The notes under the pieces are model-generated. The model searched no databases. It saw only the letters and a list, made by a program, of their open reading frames with translations, and was not told the DNA's origin. 64,000 nucleotides of DNA, taken from an alpha proteobacterium IMCC14465 (GTDB taxonomy: Bacteria; Pseudomonadota; Alphaproteobacteria; RS24). The stretch's first letter is position 1. Each line of letters begins with the position of its first letter. Both the position numbers and the translations under genes were made by a program. Of this stretch, positions 24,785 through 32,769 are shown one piece after another. Location: assembly GCA_000293845.2 (NCBI GenBank), contig ALYF01000002.1:62001-126000 (forward strand). Reading direction: 5' to 3'.

Positions 24785-24858
24785 GGCCACGTGGCGGAGT
24801 GGTTACGCAGCGGCCTGCAAAGCCGTGTACCCCGGTTCGAGTCCGGGCGTGGCCTCCA
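24785..24858 (+). tRNA. tRNA-Cys (anticodon GCA)
   Basis: A 74-base cloverleaf. The acceptor GGCCACG pairs with CGTGGCC, the anticodon loop is CTGCAAA (GCA), the T-loop is GTTCGAG, and the 3' CCA is encoded. It is followed 92 bases later by tRNA-Asn. Confidence 0.96.
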
Positions 24859-24950
24859 AAGGATAAAAAGATATTTTTAGCGGGGCGCTGATGCTTTTTA
24901 ACTTGGCGTATGCGCCATGCTTTGATATATCCACCATTCCGGTAGGCTGA

Positions 24951-25026
24951 TCCGCCTTAGCTCAGTTGGTAGAGCAAATGACTGTTAATCATTGGGTCGC
25001 TGGTTCGAGCCCAGCAGGCGGAGCCA
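24951..25026 (+). tRNA. tRNA-Asn (anticodon GTT)
   Basis: A 76-base cloverleaf. The acceptor TCCGCCT pairs with AGGCGGA, the D-arm is GCTCAGTTGGTAGAGC, the anticodon loop is CTGTTAA (GTT), and CCA is encoded at the 3' end. Confidence 0.96.
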
Positions 25027-25078: not shown

Positions 25079-25108
25079 TTGACCACTGCCGGATAAGCGC
25101 TGTTATAT
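25079..25108 (+). promoter_or_regulatory. Candidate promoter of the photolyase operon
   Basis: TTGACC (25079-25084), 18 bases, TTATAT (25103-25108), 53 bases before the photolyase ATG. I see no clear match to the Rhodobacter RpoE type (TGATCC/TAAGA) in this region, which leaves regulation by an ECF sigma factor open. Confidence 0.35.
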
Positions 25109-25160
25109 CATCCAATCTATTTGCATAATCGTATGTTCATATACATATGGAGAGTTTCGC

Positions 25161-26585
25161 ATGTCCAAATCTGTCATTTATTGGTTTCGCCAAGACCTTC
25201 GCCTAGCTGATAATCCTGCCCTTCTTCACGCCGCACATTCTGGCAAGACTGTTATTCCCATTTTCATTTTTGACCCAGATGATAGATCTTTGGGTATGGC
25301 AGCCTCATGGTGGCGCCAGCAAAGTCTCGCCAAACTGGAGGCCGCGCTCAAAAAAATCGGGGGGAAGCTCTCTTTTTATGAAGGACGCCCTGTTGAGGTT
25401 TTGCAAAAGCTGAGTGATTTTTATGAGGCTGATGAAATTGTTTGGAATCGTCAATATGACGGCTATAGCGTGTCGCGCGATAAGGAAATCAAACAAACGC
25501 TCCCCAATAGCGGCACGGGAAATATCGAGTGTAAAAGCTTCAATGCTTCCTTGCTGTTTGAGCCATGGTTGATACAAAACAAATCAGGATCATATTTTAA
25601 GGTTTTCACCCCTTACTGGCGGCAATGTATGGCTGGAAACGCCCCTGAAGCCCCCTGCCCTCCACCAACAGAATTACGCAGTCATCCAGATGTCGACCCT
25701 TTTCAAATTCCCTTACCGGCATCCCCTCTAACTGCAGATGCGGATTTAATTGCTGAGGAATGGACACCCGGTGAAGCGGGTGCCTATCAGCAATTTGAAA
25801 ATTTTATCGAAGAAGGGTTAGAGATTTATGCCGAGTTTCGTGATTTTCCTGACCGTCCTGCAACATCGCGGCTGTCCCCCTATCTCCGTTGGGGTGAAAT
25901 AAGCCCCCGTCAGATTTGGTCAAAAATACAATTTGTGAAGTCACATGAAAAATTTTCAGAGCAAACAATTAGCAAATTCCTGGCCGAAATCGGATGGCGC
26001 GAATTTTCTCATCATCTGATCTATCATGTACCGGAGATGGCGACACAAAATCTGCAGCCTTCTTTCAATGATTTCCCATGGTTAGAAAACGAAGAAGCTT
26101 TGCTACAATGGCAGGCCGGCAATACTGGCTATCCGCTCGTTGATGCGGGGATGCGTGAATTACGCCGCACCGGATATATGCATAATCGTGTCCGCATGAT
26201 TACAGCCAGTTTTTTGATAAAGCATTTGATGATTGATTGGCGCGCAGGAGAAAAATATTTCTGGGATCGCTTGCTCGACGCCTGCCCGGCCAATAATATT
26301 ACCGGGTGGCAATGGGTTGCAGGGAGCGGCGCAGATGCCGCGCCATTTTTCAGAATTTTTAATCCCATTATTCAAGGGGAAAAATTTGACCCGCAAGGCG
26401 CCTACACGAAGCGATTTATTCCCGAGCTTAGCCATCTGGAGCAGAAACATTTATTTTCCCCATGGAAAGTAAAATCAGATAATATGGATTTGGACTTTCA
26501 GGAAGGGCAATATCCCGACCCGATTGTCGAACACGGATATGCTCGCAATCGCGCTTTAGATGCCTTTCAGCAAATTCGGCGTTAA
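25161..26585 (+). CDS. phr: Deoxyribodipyrimidine photo-lyase (class I photolyase/cryptochrome family)
   Basis: A 474-aa flavoprotein that uses blue light to split UV-induced pyrimidine dimers. The N-terminal antenna domain begins VIYWFRQDLRLADNPAL. The C-terminal FAD domain has the class I patterns WREFSHHLIYHVPEMA, RELRRTGYMHNRVRM and NNITGWQWVAGSGADAAPFFRIFNP. Normal length. It is the first gene of a plus-strand run with the COG2907 flavoprotein, DUF1365, Cfa and DUF3833 genes. In Rhodobacter a photolyase is part of the RpoE-ChrR singlet-oxygen response, so the linkage is meaningful. Confidence 0.94.
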   Translation: MSKSVIYWFRQDLRLADNPALLHAAHSGKTVIPIFIFDPDDRSLGMAASWWRQQSLAKLEAALKKIGGKLSFYEGRPVEVLQKLSDFYEADEIVWNRQYDGYSVSRDKEIKQTLPNSGTGNIECKSFNASLLFEPWLIQNKSGSYFKVFTPYWRQCMAGNAPEAPCPPPTELRSHPDVDPFQIPLPASPLTADADLIAEEWTPGEAGAYQQFENFIEEGLEIYAEFRDFPDRPATSRLSPYLRWGEISPRQIWSKIQFVKSHEKFSEQTISKFLAEIGWREFSHHLIYHVPEMATQNLQPSFNDFPWLENEEALLQWQAGNTGYPLVDAGMRELRRTGYMHNRVRMITASFLIKHLMIDWRAGEKYFWDRLLDACPANNITGWQWVAGSGADAAPFFRIFNPIIQGEKFDPQGAYTKRFIPELSHLEQKHLFSPWKVKSDNMDLDFQEGQYPDPIVEHGYARNRALDAFQQIRR

Positions 26586-26656
26586 GTTTAGTTGCGTATC
26601 TGTGAATATCTTGCCGGTACACTTCTGCTCAATGAATTTGGTGAAAGAGGGAAGCG

Positions 26657-27946
26657 TTGAAAATAGCAATTATTGGTGCCGGCATATCTGGTAATTTTGC
26701 GGCATATAAACTTTCCAAAAATCATGACGTGACTGTTTACGAAAAGCGTAACCGGCTTGGCGGACATAGTGCTACGATTGATGTTGATTATGACGGTGAG
26801 CAAATCGCTGTCGATACCGGTTTTATTGTCTATAACGAATTAAATTATCCCGGCCTGACGTCGCTTTTTGCCGAACTTGGTGTGGAAACCACGCCGAGCA
26901 ATATGAGTTTTGCTTTTAGCTCTGCCTTTGACAGAGATAAAGGCGGTCTCGAATGGTCTGGTGACTCGTTAAACACCATATTTGCACAACGAAAAAATCT
27001 ATTCTCTCCCTCTTTTTGGCTGATGCTGAAGGAGATTCTGAGATTTAATAAAATCGCCAATAGCGGAGATTTTAGCGGCGCGGCTGACGAAAGCCTCGGC
27101 GACTGGTTAAAGCGTCATAACTTCTCGGAGAATTTCAAAAACAGATACCTCATCCCCATGGGGGCGGCGATTTGGTCAACACCCAGTGAGGCGATGAATG
27201 ATTTTCCTGCAAAGAGTTTTCTGCATTTTTTCATTAACCATAAGCTGACCTACCAAGACCGTCCTGAATGGCGGACTGTAAAGGGCGGTAGCCGCGAATA
27301 TGTAAAAAAACTAACCGCGGCCAGCTCTGCCGATTTCAGGGTGAATGCGGAAGTCACCAAAGTGACGCGTCAAAACGCGCAGGTGCAGGTCTATACAAAT
27401 CAATCAGATAATTTTGAGATATATGATGCCGTAGTTTTTGCCGCACATACCAACCAGTCGCTCTGTGTATTAGAGGATACGGATAAAAATGAACGAGATG
27501 TGCTGTCAGATATTAAATACCTTCCCAATCAAGTGTATTTGCACCGCGATCGTCGCCTAATGCCTAAACGTGAAAAAGTGTGGTCTTCCTGGAACTATTT
27601 AAACAGTCAGGACGCAGGAAATAACATCATCGTAACAGTAAGTTACTGGATGAATCGTTTGCAAAATATTAACAAAAAACTCCCTCTTTTTGTGACGCTC
27701 AACCCATCCGAACCGCCGGCACCCGAACTTACATTCGGACATTATGAATATGACCACCCCCAATTTGATGGCGCGGCATTTCACGCACAGTCCAAACTTG
27801 CCAAAATTCAGGGCAACAAAAATACATGGTTTTGCGGCGCATGGGCTGGCTTCGGCTTTCATGAGGATGGCTTGCAATCCGCCCAAACAATCGTCAATGA
27901 TATTGAAAGCCGAAATTTCAAAGAAAATAAAACGAATGCCTCGTAA
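26657..27946 (+). CDS. FAD-dependent amine oxidase-like flavoprotein (COG2907)
   Basis: A 429-aa NAD(P)/FAD-binding flavoprotein. The N-terminal dinucleotide fold is IAIIGAGISGNFAAYKL (about residues 3-19), followed by YEKRNRLGGHSATID. The motif VDTGFIVYNELNYPGL is characteristic of the group. A C-terminal FAD-binding strand lies in FCGAWAGFGFHEDGLQSA. The start is TTG at 26657 with GAGGGAAG upstream. This family is regularly found next to DUF1365 and Cfa-type genes and is thought to act on lipid acyl chains; desaturation or oxidation of phospholipid-bound chains is an inference. It overlaps the next gene by 11 bases. Confidence 0.85.
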   Translation: MKIAIIGAGISGNFAAYKLSKNHDVTVYEKRNRLGGHSATIDVDYDGEQIAVDTGFIVYNELNYPGLTSLFAELGVETTPSNMSFAFSSAFDRDKGGLEWSGDSLNTIFAQRKNLFSPSFWLMLKEILRFNKIANSGDFSGAADESLGDWLKRHNFSENFKNRYLIPMGAAIWSTPSEAMNDFPAKSFLHFFINHKLTYQDRPEWRTVKGGSREYVKKLTAASSADFRVNAEVTKVTRQNAQVQVYTNQSDNFEIYDAVVFAAHTNQSLCVLEDTDKNERDVLSDIKYLPNQVYLHRDRRLMPKREKVWSSWNYLNSQDAGNNIIVTVSYWMNRLQNINKKLPLFVTLNPSEPPAPELTFGHYEYDHPQFDGAAFHAQSKLAKIQGNKNTWFCGAWAGFGFHEDGLQSAQTIVNDIESRNFKENKTNAS

Positions 27947-28715
27947 TGATGTGACAGAAAATGCTTATTCCGCCATTTATCATGGCATTGTGCGTCATGC
28001 CCGTTACATGCCCAAAAAACACCGTTTTGCCTATAAGGTTTTTTCTTTGTTGCTTGATATTGATGAGCTTGACGCCCTATCAGAGAAATTAAGATTATTT
28101 TCCCATAACCGATTTAATATTTTTGGGTTTCGGACATCTGACCATGGCGCAAAAGATGGCTCACCTTTACGCCCTTTTATCGAAAACCTGCTGACTGAGA
28201 AGAAAATCAAAGCCCCGGAGCGCATATTAATTATGTGCTATCCGCGAATCTTTGGTTATGTGTTTAACCCAATCACTGTTTATTACTGCCTCACAAATAA
28301 CAAAATTTCAGCCATGATTTATGAAGTTAATAATACTTTTGGCGAAGACCATATTTATGTTGTCCCGATAAACAAATCTGACCGCCCTGCCAAACATGAC
28401 CGAATTAAACAACTCCATGTCTCGCCATTTATTTCAATGGATGCGGAATATTCATTCACGACAGATATCCCTGATGAGGAACTCAAAGTGATTATCAGAG
28501 AAAAAAGTAATGGCGCGCCCTTATTATTGGCGAGCTTTATTGGCCAACGCGCACCATTGACCGATAAAGAATTATTCAAAGCATTTTTCGGCTACCCGTT
28601 AATGACAATTAAAATCGTCATTGGTATACATTACGAGGCTTTGAGACTAATTTTAAAAGGTGTACGCTATATAAATCGGCCATCAAAGCTGTCCTCCAGA
28701 ATAACCTATCTATAG
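27936..28715 (+). CDS. DUF1365 family protein
   Basis: A 259-aa protein of the DUF1365 (COG3496) family. It starts MPRNDVTENAYSAIYHGIVRHARYMPKKHRFAYKVF-like, with the signature YHGIVRHAR near the N-terminus. Later patterns are CYPRIFGYVFNPITVYYCL and YEVNNTFGEDHIY. The function is unknown; it is almost always beside the COG2907 flavoprotein and a Cfa-type methyltransferase, so a role in fatty-acyl modification is inferred. I chose ATG 27936 inside the end of the flavoprotein gene; a longer ORF from 27744 overlaps it too far. Basic and hydrophobic C-terminus, possibly membrane-associated. Confidence 0.87.
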   Translation: MPRNDVTENAYSAIYHGIVRHARYMPKKHRFAYKVFSLLLDIDELDALSEKLRLFSHNRFNIFGFRTSDHGAKDGSPLRPFIENLLTEKKIKAPERILIMCYPRIFGYVFNPITVYYCLTNNKISAMIYEVNNTFGEDHIYVVPINKSDRPAKHDRIKQLHVSPFISMDAEYSFTTDIPDEELKVIIREKSNGAPLLLASFIGQRAPLTDKELFKAFFGYPLMTIKIVIGIHYEALRLILKGVRYINRPSKLSSRITYL

Positions 28716-28734
28716 TCCCAATTAGTAATATAAT

Positions 28735-29964
28735 ATGAGCTCCTCCCAAGAATCATCACCAAACAAACCACCGCCCAGAGGAACCAAGGCCCTCATAAGC
28801 ATTGTTGAGTTTCTTTTCAAAAATTTGAGTTATGGCGTCGTTAATGTGCAATGGCCAGATGGCAGAACCGAGACATATCAAGGGAAAGAAAGCCTCCACC
28901 TTAAAGGGGATATACTCATTCATGATTGGTCGCTTTTTAAACAAATTGTAAGCGGCGGCGCCAATGGTTTCGCTGACGGATACCTCGCCAATAGATGGTC
29001 AACACCTGATCTCTCCGCCTTGCTTGAAGTTCTAAGCCTTAATCTTGATGAAATGAATAATCATATCGGGAAAAATAAATTTATTAAGCTCATCTCAAGG
29101 CTATCGCATCTATTACGTCCAAATTCACGCGCTGGCTCAAAGAAGAATATCTATGAGCATTATGATTTGGGGAATAGCTTTTACGAAAAATGGCTTGACC
29201 CAAGCATGACGTACTCATCTGCCAAGTTTAAAACAAAGAAAAACTCACTCGAAGCCGCACAATTTGAAAAATATAAGTTACTGGCAGATTCCATTGATTT
29301 GAAGAAAGAGCATCATGTTCTGGAGATTGGCTGTGGTTGGGGCGGTTTTGCGGAATATGCAGCAACCCATATCGGGTGTCGTGTTACCGGACTGACTATC
29401 AGTCAAGCGCAATATGATTATGCCCAAGAACGTATGCGCCAAAAAGGTTTGACGGATAAAGTCGAGATAAAATTGCAGGATTACCGAGATGTTATAGGCA
29501 ATTTTGATAGAATTGCCTCCATCGAGATGTTTGAAGCTGTCGGAGAACAATATTGGCCAACTTTTTTCAATAAGGTTTCCAGTATTCTCAAACCAGGCGG
29601 CAAAGCCGGCCTACAGATTATCACAATAGATAATGATAAATTTAAGACCTATCGTAAAAATGTTGATTTCATTCAAAAATATATCTTTCCAGGCGGCATG
29701 CTGCCTTCAAAAGAGATTTTGAAGAGTGAATTTGACAAGGCACAGCTTAAATTACTCGAAACGGTTGATTTTCGACTGGACTACGCAGAGACACTTGCAA
29801 GGTGGCGAGAGCGCTTCCACGACCAGTGGCATGATATACAGCCTCTAGGCTTTGACATGCGTTTTAAGCGCATGTGGGAGTATTATTTAAGCTATTGTGA
29901 AGCCGGCTTTAAAAGAGGCACAATAGACGTTTCACAATTCTTTATTACTAAAAACCCAAGCTAA
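28735..29964 (+). CDS. Cyclopropane-fatty-acyl-phospholipid synthase family methyltransferase
   Basis: A 409-aa SAM-dependent methyltransferase. The family motif HYDLGNSFYEKWLDPSMTYS (142-161) precedes the SAM site VLEIGCGWGGFAEYA (195-209). Compared with E. coli Cfa, whose bicarbonate ion is held by Cys139, Glu239, His266 and Tyr317 (from memory), the aligned residues are Ser162, Glu267, Gln294 and Arg358. Three of four are changed, so it may methylate unsaturated phospholipid chains without forming a cyclopropane, as proposed for UfaM-like enzymes of furan fatty acid synthesis. Fourth gene of the photolyase operon. Confidence 0.88.
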   Translation: MSSSQESSPNKPPPRGTKALISIVEFLFKNLSYGVVNVQWPDGRTETYQGKESLHLKGDILIHDWSLFKQIVSGGANGFADGYLANRWSTPDLSALLEVLSLNLDEMNNHIGKNKFIKLISRLSHLLRPNSRAGSKKNIYEHYDLGNSFYEKWLDPSMTYSSAKFKTKKNSLEAAQFEKYKLLADSIDLKKEHHVLEIGCGWGGFAEYAATHIGCRVTGLTISQAQYDYAQERMRQKGLTDKVEIKLQDYRDVIGNFDRIASIEMFEAVGEQYWPTFFNKVSSILKPGGKAGLQIITIDNDKFKTYRKNVDFIQKYIFPGGMLPSKEILKSEFDKAQLKLLETVDFRLDYAETLARWRERFHDQWHDIQPLGFDMRFKRMWEYYLSYCEAGFKRGTIDVSQFFITKNPS

Positions 29965-30034
29965 TCCAGTTACGTTTGCATAACGTATAAAAGTTAATTG
30001 CCGGCATTGACTACTGCGGCGCCAGGAGGTCTAT

Positions 30035-30496
30035 ATGTCTACCGCAGAGTCTTTAAATACCAGTTTTCGCCTAGAAAACTTCTTTATCGGGGAGTTCATC
30101 TCTGACGGCATTATTGCCAAACCTAATGGACAACTCATCCGACGCTTTAAGGTCGAAGGACAAGCCAGCTTCAAAAAAGGCACGCTCACTTTAAACGAAA
30201 GTTTTACCTATGATGATGGTGAAATCGATAATCGGATTTGGCAAATTTTATGCCTACCGGATGGGTCTTATGAAGGCTACACAACTGATTTAGTTGGTCC
30301 ACCTCCACGTGATTACCCAAGAGATGATCTTTTTACTTGGTCTTATCGTCTGAAATTACCCGTCAAAAACATTCCGGTGACCTTGCGATTTACCGATATG
30401 ATGCATTTCAAAAATGATAGTATCAGCAATATGGCAACCATCAGCAAATTCGGATTGCCTGTTTTGAAGATTTTTCAAACCTTCCATAAAGTCTAA
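30035..30496 (+). CDS. DUF3833 family protein
   Basis: A 153-aa protein matching DUF3833: FRLENFFIGEFISDGI at the start, TLTLNESFTYDDGEIDNRIW near residues 49-68, then WSYRLKLPV and a C-terminal SKFGLPVLKIF. Many relatives carry a lipoprotein signal; this one shows none. The family is found in ChrR/Cfa gene clusters of several Proteobacteria; its reaction is unknown. A strong AGGAGG lies 7 bases before the ATG. It ends directly against the convergent SDR gene, with no gap. Confidence 0.85.
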   Translation: MSTAESLNTSFRLENFFIGEFISDGIIAKPNGQLIRRFKVEGQASFKKGTLTLNESFTYDDGEIDNRIWQILCLPDGSYEGYTTDLVGPPPRDYPRDDLFTWSYRLKLPVKNIPVTLRFTDMMHFKNDSISNMATISKFGLPVLKIFQTFHKV

Positions 30497-31261
30497 TTAA
30501 CGCGAGAGTAACCGCACATAGAGTTGACGCGGTAAAAACGTCATTAATCTGAGCCAAAATGTAAAACGTTTTGGAAAAGTTATGCGTGTTCGGTTCTTTT
30601 CCAACCCGTCAACCATAGCCCGTGCCGCTTTCGTAACATCCATGAGAGCCGGCATGTGGAATGTGTTTTTCTGGGTTGCGGGCGTGTCAATAAAGCCCGG
30701 CGCGACCATATTTACGCTTAAACCATATTGCGCAAGATCAACCGCTAGGGCTTCCCCCATATTGAGTAAACCCGCTTTGGTGGCCCCATAAGCGGCAGAT
30801 GTCGGCAGGCCATTATAGCCTGCCACTGACGATACGAGCACAATCTGGCCTTGCTTGCGCTCAATCATAAAGGGATAAGCCGCCGCAATCATATTAACTG
30901 CGCCGGTTAAATTGACATCAAAACTTTTGTCAAAAATCGATACATCAAATTCTGGAAAATTAGTTGGAAGGTAAATCCCTGCATTGGCGATAATCATCGC
31001 AAGTGAACCCATTTCAGTCTCAATTTTTTGAGCAGTTTTTTGCATGCCCTTCCTGTCTGTAACATCACAGGCGTAAGAGACAATATTGTCATGCTGGGAA
31101 GCTAGCGCATCAAGCTTGTCACTGCTGCGGGCGGAAATAGACACCTGCCACCCGCGCCGGGCCATTTCGAGAGCAACAGCCGCGCCGATACCTGAACTCG
31201 CACCCGTAATCCATACAACACCGTCAGAGGGGCGCATGGCTGATAGTTTTCGTTTACTCAA
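30497..31261 (-). CDS. Short-chain dehydrogenase/reductase, ChrR-cluster type
   Basis: A 254-aa classical SDR. It has GASSGIG (about residues 20-26), NAGIY (about 91-95), SSVAGYNG, and an intact Y-x3-K in YGATKAGLL (about 158). The C-terminus after residue 225 is basic and hydrophobic (FWLRLMTFLPRQLYVRLL), suggesting membrane attachment. NAD(P)-dependent reduction or oxidation of a lipid-derived carbonyl or alcohol is inferred from the cluster. It overlaps the DUF6134 gene by 8 bases. A start at residue 9 (31237) is possible. Confidence 0.87.
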   Translation of the reverse strand: MSKRKLSAMRPSDGVVWITGASSGIGAAVALEMARRGWQVSISARSSDKLDALASQHDNIVSYACDVTDRKGMQKTAQKIETEMGSLAMIIANAGIYLPTNFPEFDVSIFDKSFDVNLTGAVNMIAAAYPFMIERKQGQIVLVSSVAGYNGLPTSAAYGATKAGLLNMGEALAVDLAQYGLSVNMVAPGFIDTPATQKNTFHMPALMDVTKAARAMVDGLEKNRTRITFPKRFTFWLRLMTFLPRQLYVRLLSR

Positions 31262-32015
31262 AAGGGTTATCCTTCAACAGAATTTCAGAAGCGTAATGCC
31301 ATTTCTTTTTTGGCGGAATTTTATCCGGACTGCATATCTCATAAATAGCATCCCGTTTCTTGCGGAAAGCACCGCCGACCCACTCACCCTGAGGGGTATA
31401 ATAGGCATCTCCCTTGGCAAAGCTGTAGGTCAGAACATCCTTTACCTCACCCAGCACATTAAGCTGTTGGCGGCCCAAAAAAGTGGTTTCCACGTCAATT
31501 TTTTTACCGCTTTGATGGTTAACCAACTGTTTTTCCGTGAGTGACTCAGGATTCCAGAAAGTTGCGGGCATGAGCGCCTTATCCATGGTGCCGCTAAATT
31601 TACTTCCCTCAACAACCAGCCCCTCTTCACCCAATACGCCTCTGGCAAAAAGCCTTTTATCCTGCTCTTTCGTATCTGTAATAAAGGCAACCAAAATCCC
31701 ATTTTTCCAATATTCAACCGCGTCATGGCGGAAATCTGCGACTTTAATGAAACCAAGCTTCACGATAATTTCAAAATGGGTTTTAACAACTAGATTATCT
31801 CCATCTGGAAAAAATTCCATATGATGAAACCCAACATCCTTGCCCTTATATTTAACGCGGAATGATTTTGTCCCCTCCGAGGGAACAGCAGCACGCCAGT
31901 CAAGCGCTGGATACTCAAAAGCAGCGTTTTTAACGCCTTGAGCAAATGCAAAAGAACATAAAAAAAGAAAAATTATTAAAGCGAGAAAGCTAGGATATAA
32001 AATCCTTGAGGACAC
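31254..32015 (-). CDS. DUF6134 family exported protein
   Basis: About 253 aa with a signal peptide (hydrophobic segment ending FAFAQ). It resembles DUF6134: FRVKYKGKDVGFHHMEF followed by VVKTHFEIIVKLGFIKVADFRHDAVEYW, then an all-beta body. The function is unknown; a periplasmic lipid or small-molecule binding fold is a guess. I chose the GTG at 32015, because AGG lies seven bases upstream; a TTG two codons earlier has its AGG too close. The gene overlaps the end of the chrR-like gene, which indicates translational coupling. Confidence 0.75.
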   Translation of the reverse strand: MSSRILYPSFLALIIFLFLCSFAFAQGVKNAAFEYPALDWRAAVPSEGTKSFRVKYKGKDVGFHHMEFFPDGDNLVVKTHFEIIVKLGFIKVADFRHDAVEYWKNGILVAFITDTKEQDKRLFARGVLGEEGLVVEGSKFSGTMDKALMPATFWNPESLTEKQLVNHQSGKKIDVETTFLGRQQLNVLGEVKDVLTYSFAKGDAYYTPQGEWVGGAFRKKRDAIYEICSPDKIPPKKKWHYASEILLKDNPFE

Positions 32016-32649
32016 GGCCAAACCTGTCTTTGAATTTCAATGAACCGGTAGTAACGGCTAAACATAGGCAAACTTCATCACCCACAGCTTTAGGGCGATG
32101 CTCAACCTTACCGTCAGCAATAGCAAGATCACCACGACTATAAACCTCGCCACCATCGATAAAAGCCCCTCTCAGTACGAGTGTGGCTTCGATACCCTCA
32201 TGTGCGTGACGCGGGGCAGATTTACCGGGCTGAATTTTCAAAAGACGAATATCGCTTGTCGCGTCATCAGCTTTAATTTTTGATGATTTCACGCCAGGAT
32301 AGGAAAACGACCACTTTAAACCATCAATATCGGTGGATAAAGCACGGCGAAGTGGCAGTGGCAGATCAACATCTGAACATGACATAAGATTATCAACAGG
32401 CGCCGGCTCTTCAGCAATGAGTTCAACAGGTTCATCATCAAGCGCGTCCATAAGCGACTGCACACTATCTTCGGACATGCCAACAGGCTCAGCACTATCA
32501 ATGATGGAGGCATTTAAATCATCGGCAAAATAGAGTTTTTTGCGGGCTTCAGGCTCAAGCGTTAGATAGCTGGCGACAAGAATGCTCATCGGCGTATCAA
32601 GCGTGCCTGCTGAATATTGTAAAAGTAATGTGTCGATGTCTGCTGACAT
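31990..32649 (-). CDS. ChrR-like cupin protein with degenerate anti-sigma domain
   Basis: 219 aa from ATG 32649. The N-terminal part aligns with the anti-sigma domain of Rhodobacter ChrR (LLLQYSAGTL, then VASYLTLEPEAR). The zinc ligands His6, His31, Cys35 and Cys38 of ChrR (from memory) correspond here to Ala3, Tyr28, Glu32 and Ala35, so the site is gone. The C-terminal cupin keeps its ligands: His148, His150, Glu154 and His184, with the same relative spacing as ChrR 141/143/147/177. ChrR restrains the ECF sigma factor RpoE until singlet oxygen appears. No sigma gene is adjacent here. First gene of an operon with DUF6134 and the SDR. Confidence 0.85.
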   Translation of the reverse strand: MSADIDTLLLQYSAGTLDTPMSILVASYLTLEPEARKKLYFADDLNASIIDSAEPVGMSEDSVQSLMDALDDEPVELIAEEPAPVDNLMSCSDVDLPLPLRRALSTDIDGLKWSFSYPGVKSSKIKADDATSDIRLLKIQPGKSAPRHAHEGIEATLVLRGAFIDGGEVYSRGDLAIADGKVEHRPKAVGDEVCLCLAVTTGSLKFKDRFGRVLKDFIS

Positions 32650-32709: not shown

Positions 32710-32769
32710 TTTCAGTTTGTTAACTACATTACGATATATATTTCATTTTGGTTCACAGACAAACTGAAA
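32710..32769. promoter_or_regulatory. Inverted repeat in the divergent chrR-like/cysK region
   Basis: TTTCAGTTTGT (32710-32720) and its exact reverse complement ACAAACTGAAA (32759-32769) flank a 38-base AT-rich spacer that contains TTTCATTTTG. The pair lies in the 182-base region between two divergent genes. It may be a two-site operator or a looping site; the regulator is unknown. Confidence 0.5.

Follow-up and report, generated by a model that had tools for sequence, protein, structure and literature searches.

A probable furan fatty acid arm of the sigma-E/ChrR singlet-oxygen response in an alphaproteobacterium, with chrR in the lipid operon and no zinc ligands in its anti-sigma domain

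What does a photolyase do beside three putative lipid-modifying enzymes and a ChrR-family anti-sigma factor, and what controls them all? We asked this of a locus in the alphaproteobacterium IMCC14465, which lies in a window (the whole stretch of DNA analyzed) of 64,000 nucleotides, positions 62001-126000 of contig C2 (ALYF01000002.1), from a 1.92-Mb genome that is 99.75% complete. On the plus strand the locus carries phr (photolyase), genes of the ufaD, ufaO and ufaM type and a DUF3833 gene; on the minus strand it carries chrR, a DUF6134 gene and a short-chain dehydrogenase/reductase (SDR) gene. An original prediction, made from the letters of the window, had read this as two gapless convergent operons that form one photo-oxidation and lipid module. 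Family matches and open reading frames (ORFs) place all eight genes where it had put them and in the same order, and the two operons do abut without a gap, the DUF3833 gene ending at 30496 and the SDR gene at 30497.

We consider it likely that the locus is the furan fatty acid arm of the ECF11 (sigma-E/ChrR) singlet-oxygen response, in an alphaproteobacterium whose order (hereafter the order) includes the PS1 clade. The module is real and mostly known, and its control is a variant with computational support. What is new relative to the known module is the control circuit: the anti-sigma factor stands in the lipid operon, would be expressed through the same sigma factor that it is expected to hold in check, and has no zinc finger. 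Gene content, gene order, motifs, ligand loss and conservation were computed here. Published work is cited by PubMed Central number, in each case for the passages on which we draw.

Results

The module recurs in other genomes

The original prediction had proposed a comparison of gene neighborhoods, and in other genomes these families do occur together. We took the best 80 DUF1365 loci by likeness to the window protein, from a longer list, and 74 of these named loci gave a DUF1365 ORF. A flavoprotein lies immediately upstream of DUF1365 in 72 of the 74 and a methylase immediately downstream in 67; within a few genes are an SDR (51 loci), DUF3833 (38), ChrR (32), RpoE (23), DUF6134 (18) and a photolyase (14). 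Among 289 genomes of the class that were searched, 142 have DUF1365 and 100 have ChrR over the cut-off. Of the 100 ChrR genomes 97 also carry DUF1365, as against 45 of the 189 others (Fisher p 3e-37, not corrected for phylogeny). Outside the order, DUF1365 neighborhoods were fetched from 60 of the 142 genomes, a non-random choice by score and contig size.

Within the order, 24 genomes have a ChrR match. We fetched the loci of 20 and read the anti-sigma domain of two more, the rest being too short. Of the 20 fetched loci, 16 show the whole arrangement, phr-ufaD-ufaO-ufaM opposite SDR-DUF6134-chrR, and the other four agree with it up to the contig end. DUF3833 belongs to the module only in three of these loci, all from the window's own genus.

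The same genes are known from a characterized response. The RpoE regulon of Rhodobacter sphaeroides comprises rpoE, chrR, cfaS (RSP2144, that is ufaM), phrA, RSP1091-1087 (RSP1087 being an SDR), rpoHII, a fasciclin gene, folE2, cycA and others, and 13 of 15 regulon genes are induced by singlet oxygen (PMC7074977); a photolyase and a Cfa-like gene, which the original prediction had ascribed to Rhodobacter, are among them. In mutants that lack the genes for furan fatty acids, the ability to raise sigma-E activity is impaired (PMC6852236). The window's genome shares with this regulon phr, ufaM, ufaD, ufaO, an SDR, chrR, rpoH, a folE-type gene and an ECF11 sigma factor (PMC6852236, PMC7074977), and the window SDR is a possible counterpart of RSP1087. 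It differs from R. sphaeroides in that rpoE is unlinked and has no box, chrR is in the lipid operon and the anti-sigma domain has no zinc ligands. The blue-light regulon of sigma-E/ChrR in Vibrio cholerae likewise includes induced CFA-type and photolyase-family genes and has a similar promoter box; there, chrR and the sigma gene share one operon (PMC5241685). The window's boxes have a spacing of 17 and a degenerate -35 part. Taken together, the co-occurrence of the families, the homology of the genes to the R. sphaeroides regulon and three sigma-E-type boxes inside the locus support the proposal of a single photo-oxidation and lipid module.

ChrR has lost its zinc site and kept its cupin

The original prediction listed a ChrR-like protein and missed both that no sigma gene stands beside chrR and that the anti-sigma domain has no zinc site. 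In an alignment to 2z2s, a solved ChrR structure, VASYLTLEPEAR of the window protein stands opposite VATHLSLCDECR, which gives H31Y, C35E and C38A in the numbering of PMC6852236. An ungapped extension of the alignment shows that H6 is lost as well, and the zinc-binding anti-sigma (ZAS) motif H-X24-H-X3-C-X2-C is absent. The cupin ligands H141, H143, E147 and H177 are all kept in the same alignment. This chrR is the genome's only ChrR match.

The loss is shared by the order. All three residues of the triad are gone, and no rpoE is adjacent, in 21 of 21 ChrR copies (the 20 fetched loci and the window); with the two read from smaller loci added, none of the 23 readable copies retains the triad (23 of 23). 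As a class sample we used 101 loci outside the order with ChrR over the cut-off, leaving out three order genomes and G138, which passes only together with its neighbor. The cupin ligands are complete in 101 of these 101 proteins and the anti-sigma triad in 78. Counting a triad as incomplete when at least one of its three residues is lost, 23 are incomplete, and by our own reading nine of these lack all three; 17 of the 88 ChrR proteins encoded beside rpoE have an incomplete triad. The search model spans both domains, so relatives without a cupin could have been missed.

The zinc-free anti-sigma domain is still under purifying selection. Its ratio of nonsynonymous to synonymous substitution rates (dN/dS) in three genera is 0.062, 0.163 and 0.125, compared with 0.023, 0.065 and 0.032 for the cupin; the five enzymes range from about 0.06 to 0.13 in two of the three genera and DUF6134 from 0.07 to 0.20, and because dS exceeds 1 in every group mean these ratios are rough. 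RseA and RskA are membrane proteins without a cupin, and unlike them the window ChrR has two domains, the second a cupin whose metal site is intact. In both, as may be the case for the window ChrR, a class I anti-sigma domain works without zinc (PMC7406223). Zinc-free and zinc-binding anti-sigma domains mix within groups (PMC7406223), and the loss of zinc by itself is therefore no novelty.

Sigma-E is encoded elsewhere, and chrR has its own promoter box

A gene for an ECF11 sigma-E factor stands alone at positions 465561-466310 of contig C3 in the window's genome (G000), with sigma-E 2q1z_A as its best solved match (3.1e-49). There is no rpoE-chrR operon, the two genes being unlinked in this genome and in all 20 fetched loci of the order. 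Clear sigma-E orthologs, with at least 61% identity, occur in 22 of the 28 genomes of the order. Among these are all 15 genomes with a completeness of 90% or more and a contamination of 5% or less.

Two layouts occur in the class sample. A box of its own precedes 13 of 13 chrR genes without a neighboring rpoE (orphan chrR) and none of 88 chrR genes behind rpoE; the Fisher tests on these counts ignore phylogeny. Where the genome has no orphan chrR, rpoE itself has a box in 63 of 83 cases (one of the 20 without it has only 50 bases of sequence); in the 13 genomes that do have one, it has a box in one of 14, or one of five if the linked rpoE genes there are taken by themselves. In four of these 13 genomes (G068, G147, G149 and G250) a second chrR is still linked to rpoE, and the rpoE gene there has no box; G220 keeps such a linked chrR whose rpoE has the box. 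Behind eight of the 13 orphan chrR genes, on the same strand, lies an SDR or DUF6134 gene. We infer that an autoregulated rpoE-chrR operon has repeatedly given way to negative feedback through chrR only, with the cupin as the indispensable part of the sensor.

Sigma-E-type boxes lie inside the module and at further genes

The V. cholerae sigma-E box is reported as TGATC-N18-CGTAT (PMC5241685), and TGATC-N17-CGTA(T) recurs here. The pattern TVAWCC-N16-CGTA has three matches in the window, all in the module (before phr, DUF3833 and chrR), where 0.39 were expected; a count of three came up in one of 100 shuffled sequences. In the intergenic stretch before chrR, a perfect inverted repeat of 10 bases flanking the chrR box (32710-32719 and 32760-32769) was dropped as a candidate element; it is not kept in three relatives from the genus.

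Outside the module, a box precedes rpoH at -46 to -49 in 23 of 23 loci of the order (computed motif), these being the 25 closest matches minus two without a gene start, with four distant ones left out. Upstream of folE a box is found in 13 of 22 loci, at -259 to -316 in 12 of them (three fragments left out), and upstream of rpoE, from exact starts, in none of 22, one of which (L152) has only 346 bases upstream. Shuffled sequences gave 2-5% in these three sets. In the window's genome the boxed genes are an rpoH-family gene at G000:C6:47114-48010 (L366) and a GTP cyclohydrolase I gene of the folE type, named by eye from its sequence, at G000:C3:896801-897445 (L395). Both are probable further members of the regulon.

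The lipid enzymes match a published furan pathway

That UfaM, UfaD and UfaO make furan fatty acids, as the original prediction stated, is documented: they convert 18:1 phospholipid chains (cis-vaccenate) to the 9M5 furan fatty acid (9M5-FuFA) (Lemke et al. 2020, PMC7380195). Their reactions were demonstrated genetically and in vitro in 2020, UfaO carries DUF1365, and the furan oxygen derives from O2 (PMC7380195). RPA2571-2570-2569 of Rhodopseudomonas palustris (ufaD-ufaO-ufaM) suffice for 9M5-FuFA, and single deletion of RSP1087, 1088 or 1089 in R. sphaeroides left the fatty acid profile unchanged (PMC7380195). The window has the same three families as RPA2571-2570-2569 and as RSP1091-1090 with RSP2144, and the R. 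palustris gene order too. Unlike those loci (PMC7380195), its putative furan set joins phr, DUF3833 and the convergent chrR-DUF6134-SDR, with no transporter gene in the cluster. The chemistry of the module is largely described already, and DUF3833, DUF6134 and the SDR stay undescribed. Accordingly, the statement that three of the families have no assigned reaction stands for DUF3833 and DUF6134 and fails for DUF1365, which is UfaO; the idea of a pathway of wholly undescribed chemistry was rejected on the same ground, the DUF1365 reaction being already published (PMC7380195).

The UfaM-type enzyme is the genome's sole strong match to the CMAS family (295 bits, the next two at 39 and 31). It matches cyclopropane fatty acid (CFA) synthases with E-values of 1e-53 to 1e-55 and falls under the NCBIfam equivalog cut-offs, scoring 271.6 bits of 400 for NF008686 and 264.2 of 600 for NF053839. 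We aligned it to 5z9o and to 6bqc, which we take to be the E. coli CFA structure with chain numbers one higher: Glu and Tyr of the bicarbonate site are kept, Gln replaces His, and Ser replaces the Cys of both structures. The E. coli enzyme binds its catalytic bicarbonate through Glu239, His266 and Tyr317 (PMC11387697).

We then typed six positions in CMAS-family ORFs of more than 250 residues, from two locus sets that overlap in a few genomes. Directly behind DUF1365, 131 of 131 such ORFs have Glu and Gln at the Glu/His ligand positions; 126 read [S/A/G/C]EAQIY, three end before the Tyr column and two read AERQIY or SESQIY. Of 17 that are not directly behind DUF1365, seven read xEHHFY, eight SEAQIY or AEAQIY, and two are others. 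Judged from these residues, loss of the His ligand would fit an enzyme whose product ends as a methyl-alkene instead of a ring. A CFA synthase in the strict sense is rejected by the bicarbonate-ligand (His to Gln) and NCBIfam cut-off tests.

DUF6134 and DUF3833 may have folds like those of lipid-binding proteins

A structure model of DUF6134 (predicted local distance difference test, pLDDT, 88; 21 sequences) matches the DUF1849 protein 6ntr_D with Z 12.4 and a root-mean-square deviation (rmsd) of 3.8 over 186 residues, and the axonemal chain 9fqr_Xh with Z 12.2; LmcA, RseB, LolA and LprG chains score Z 6-9 (RseB 8.4, LolA 7.4). Its predicted fold may be DUF1849/LolA/RseB-like, and its N terminus suggests that the protein is exported. 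The DUF3833 model (pLDDT 92; 23 sequences) is a closed small beta-barrel that matches a designed barrel (8uzl, Z 14.9), BFA1 (14.8), OssO (14.7) and nitrobindin (14.0, rmsd 3.0, 136 aligned), with fatty-acid-binding proteins at Z of about 9, and it may be a barrel like those of nitrobindin and the fatty-acid-binding proteins. By eye, 19 of 22 aligned DUF3833 relatives have a lipoprotein-like N terminus, which the window copy does not have, and no signal peptide was seen in the window copy. That the two proteins bind lipid is our guess from modeled fold and context.

Gene annotation

The features of the locus are collected in Table 1. A start for ufaO at the ATG at 27936 is better supported, by a genus homologue and by the sequence, so that the end of ufaD and ufaO overlap. 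The photolyase scores under the cut-off of all five NCBIfam models that it matched, the nearest solved relative of the UfaD-type flavoprotein is the amine oxidase LkcE, and a DUF1365 profile search against solved structures gave no match. Genes for tRNA-Cys and tRNA-Asn lie at 24785-25026, directly upstream of phr.

Table 1. Genes and sigma-E-type boxes of the locus, in window positions
Feature	Position	Strand	Match or conservation
Box TCATC-N17-CGTA(T) before phr	25108..25133	+	Kept in 4/4 genus members examined
Class I-type DNA photolyase (phr)	25161..26585	+	FAD_binding_7 5.9e-80; Pfam PF03441/PF00875
UfaD-type FAD/NAD-binding, amino-oxidase-type flavoprotein (predicted acyl desaturase; COG2907 in the original prediction)	26657..27946	+	PF01593, PF13450
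Putative UfaO (DUF1365), O2-dependent furan-forming enzyme	27936..28715	+	PF07103 2.6e-77
UfaM-type methylase, CFA-synthase superfamily (CMAS/Cfa)	28735..29964	+	PF02353 1e-87
Box TAATC-N17-CGTA(T) before DUF3833, overlapping ufaM stop	29962..29987	+	In 4/4 genus members examined
DUF3833	30035..30496	+	PF12915 5.7e-32
Short-chain dehydrogenase/reductase (SDR)	30497..31261	-	PF00106
DUF6134	31254..32021	-	PF19630 6.9e-39; exact start uncertain
ChrR-family anti-sigma factor	31990..32649	-	TIGR02451 162.4 bits, cut-off 124.5
Box TGAAC-N17-CGTA before chrR-DUF6134-SDR	32730..32755	-	Kept in four genus members examined

Discussion

In the mechanism that we propose, UfaM would methylate unsaturated phospholipid chains (cis-vaccenoyl in Rhodobacter), UfaD would desaturate the product to a methyl-diene, and UfaO would add O2-derived oxygen to give a methylated furan chain that could scavenge singlet oxygen; the photolyase would repair DNA. 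The chemistry of UfaM, UfaD and UfaO and the induction of homologous genes by singlet oxygen have been shown in other systems, and by analogy both may hold here. A role in binding or carrying lipids, or the products of their oxidation, is probable for DUF3833 and for DUF6134, the latter acting in the periplasm. Transcription would start at the sigma-E-type promoters before phr, DUF3833 and chrR, with the ECF11 sigma-E encoded elsewhere as their reader. ChrR would then be made from a sigma-E promoter in the lipid operon, not from an autoregulated rpoE-chrR operon. It would bind sigma-E and hold it in trans through its zinc-free, presumably helical, anti-sigma domain while its cupin metal site senses stress or a lipid signal, and the outcome would be negative feedback only.

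Several observations weigh against this reading, beginning with ChrR itself. Inhibition by R. sphaeroides ChrR requires the zinc of the anti-sigma domain (PMC6852236), which argues against an active inhibitor here. Two genomes of the order, G003 (99% complete) and G009 (90%), keep sigma-E without any ChrR match, so sigma-E would be unrestrained or otherwise controlled there. An association of zinc loss with unlinking, which we had considered, was dropped: an incomplete triad occurs in six of 13 unlinked and 17 of 88 linked cases (p 0.07, ignoring phylogeny), and the tree, on which the triad state changes at least 12 times and linkage at least 11 times, shows no such association (FastTree, 121 rows, best tree only). 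With no significant link, the two are separate events. The zinc-free ChrR might no longer be an anti-sigma factor at all: the lipid operon might have recruited it as a cupin enzyme or as a sensor of lipid peroxides, with sigma-E otherwise controlled or constitutive. The loss of the needed triad in every readable copy of the order, the lack of an adjacent sigma gene in the window and the 20 fetched loci, and the two genomes with sigma-E and no ChrR match are all consistent with this; it has to face an anti-sigma domain under purifying selection comparable to that of the enzymes, a chrR gene that retains its sigma-E-type box, incomplete triads in 17 linked cases where an anti-sigma role is expected, and zinc-free class I domains that are known to work (RseA, RskA; PMC7406223). 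We regard it as unlikely, if the most serious of the alternatives.

The boxes are a second point of weakness. Their -35 part is degenerate, and the first sites were already known when we composed the patterns. With a fixed criterion, eight of 16 loci of the order have the box at phr and 17 of 21 have it at chrR. A stricter pattern, run over the whole genome, gave four matches (among them phr, chrR and folE) against three for a reversed control, so that the motif alone defines no regulon; the fourth match, G000:C2:478318-478343 (L174, L006), lies near a second ECF sigma gene and has no evident target on its strand. It could be argued from the degenerate -35 part, the genome-wide control and the patchy phr box that the furan pathway is present but outside the control of sigma-E, its genes being expressed constitutively and the boxes having arisen by chance. 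We think this improbable, given that all three window matches fall inside the module, that the rpoH boxes keep their position in 23 of 23 loci and those of folE in 12 of 22, and that 13 of 13 unlinked and 0 of 88 linked chrR genes have a box of their own.

As to the chemistry, orthology of the window enzymes to the tested RSP and RPA enzymes rests on family, order and signature, and the UfaM signature in eight of 17 CMAS ORFs away from DUF1365 means that the signature is no proof of operon function. Even so, an ordinary CFA stress locus with a photolyase, in which the Cfa-type enzyme makes cyclopropane and DUF1365 and the flavoprotein modify cyclopropane chains, is very improbable: it can draw on the CMAS family match, on the E-values to CFA synthases and on the former annotation of RSP1090/1091 as cyclopropane/cyclopropene proteins (PMC7074977), against which stand the scores below the NCBIfam CFA equivalog cut-offs, the Gln and Ser in place of His and Cys, with Gln in all ORFs directly behind DUF1365, and a homologous gene set that makes furan chains (PMC7380195).

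A furan fatty acid arm of the singlet-oxygen response thus remains our preferred reading, and it leads us to a bolder proposal that we hold tentatively, at somewhat less than even odds. The singlet-oxygen circuit of alphaproteobacteria may have a second architecture that has arisen more than once, the orphan-chrR layout: chrR moves out of the autoregulated rpoE-chrR operon into a furan-lipid operon that is a target of sigma-E, rpoE loses its own sigma-E promoter, the feedback becomes negative only and wired to the lipid product, and the cupin, or a furan-lipid oxidation product bound to it, would be the true sensor. The zinc finger of the anti-sigma domain, a proposed sensor that reacts fast with singlet oxygen, is gone in the PS1-clade order and separately elsewhere, and the cupin site is never gone. 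The oxidation product would perhaps be brought to the cupin by DUF6134 and DUF3833 acting as lipid-binding proteins. We found no account of the orphan-chrR layout in the titles and abstract beginnings of the ChrR papers among the matches listed or in passages of PMC8999054, a range of text from which priority cannot be judged.

Whether ChrR senses singlet oxygen through the zinc finger of its anti-sigma domain is under debate (PMC6432622). The absence of the finger from 23 of 23 readable copies in the order and the completeness of the cupin site in 101 of 101 proteins of the class sample amount to a natural experiment that makes the question of sensing directly testable, and genomes with an orphan chrR offer an alternative feedback design for a well-studied stress circuit. 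In G003 (L151, L357, L372) the sigma-E gene and the box before rpoH are kept, and neither ChrR nor DUF1365 has a match.

The PS1 clade and the Pelagibacteraceae are small-genome bacteria of the ocean. SAR11 (Pelagibacteraceae) loci, among them L193, L198 and L200, carry ufaD-ufaO-ufaM-DUF3833, most with a convergent SDR gene. Neither chrR nor rpoE is among the nearby genes shown at the Pelagibacteraceae ufaD-ufaO-ufaM loci, so furan fatty acids may be made there under other control. Among the papers searched, only one matched furan fatty acid and SAR11 together, and by its title it concerns dinoflagellate volatiles. With the ufaD-ufaO-ufaM set in both the PS1 clade and the Pelagibacteraceae, marine bacterioplankton may widely make furan fatty acids.

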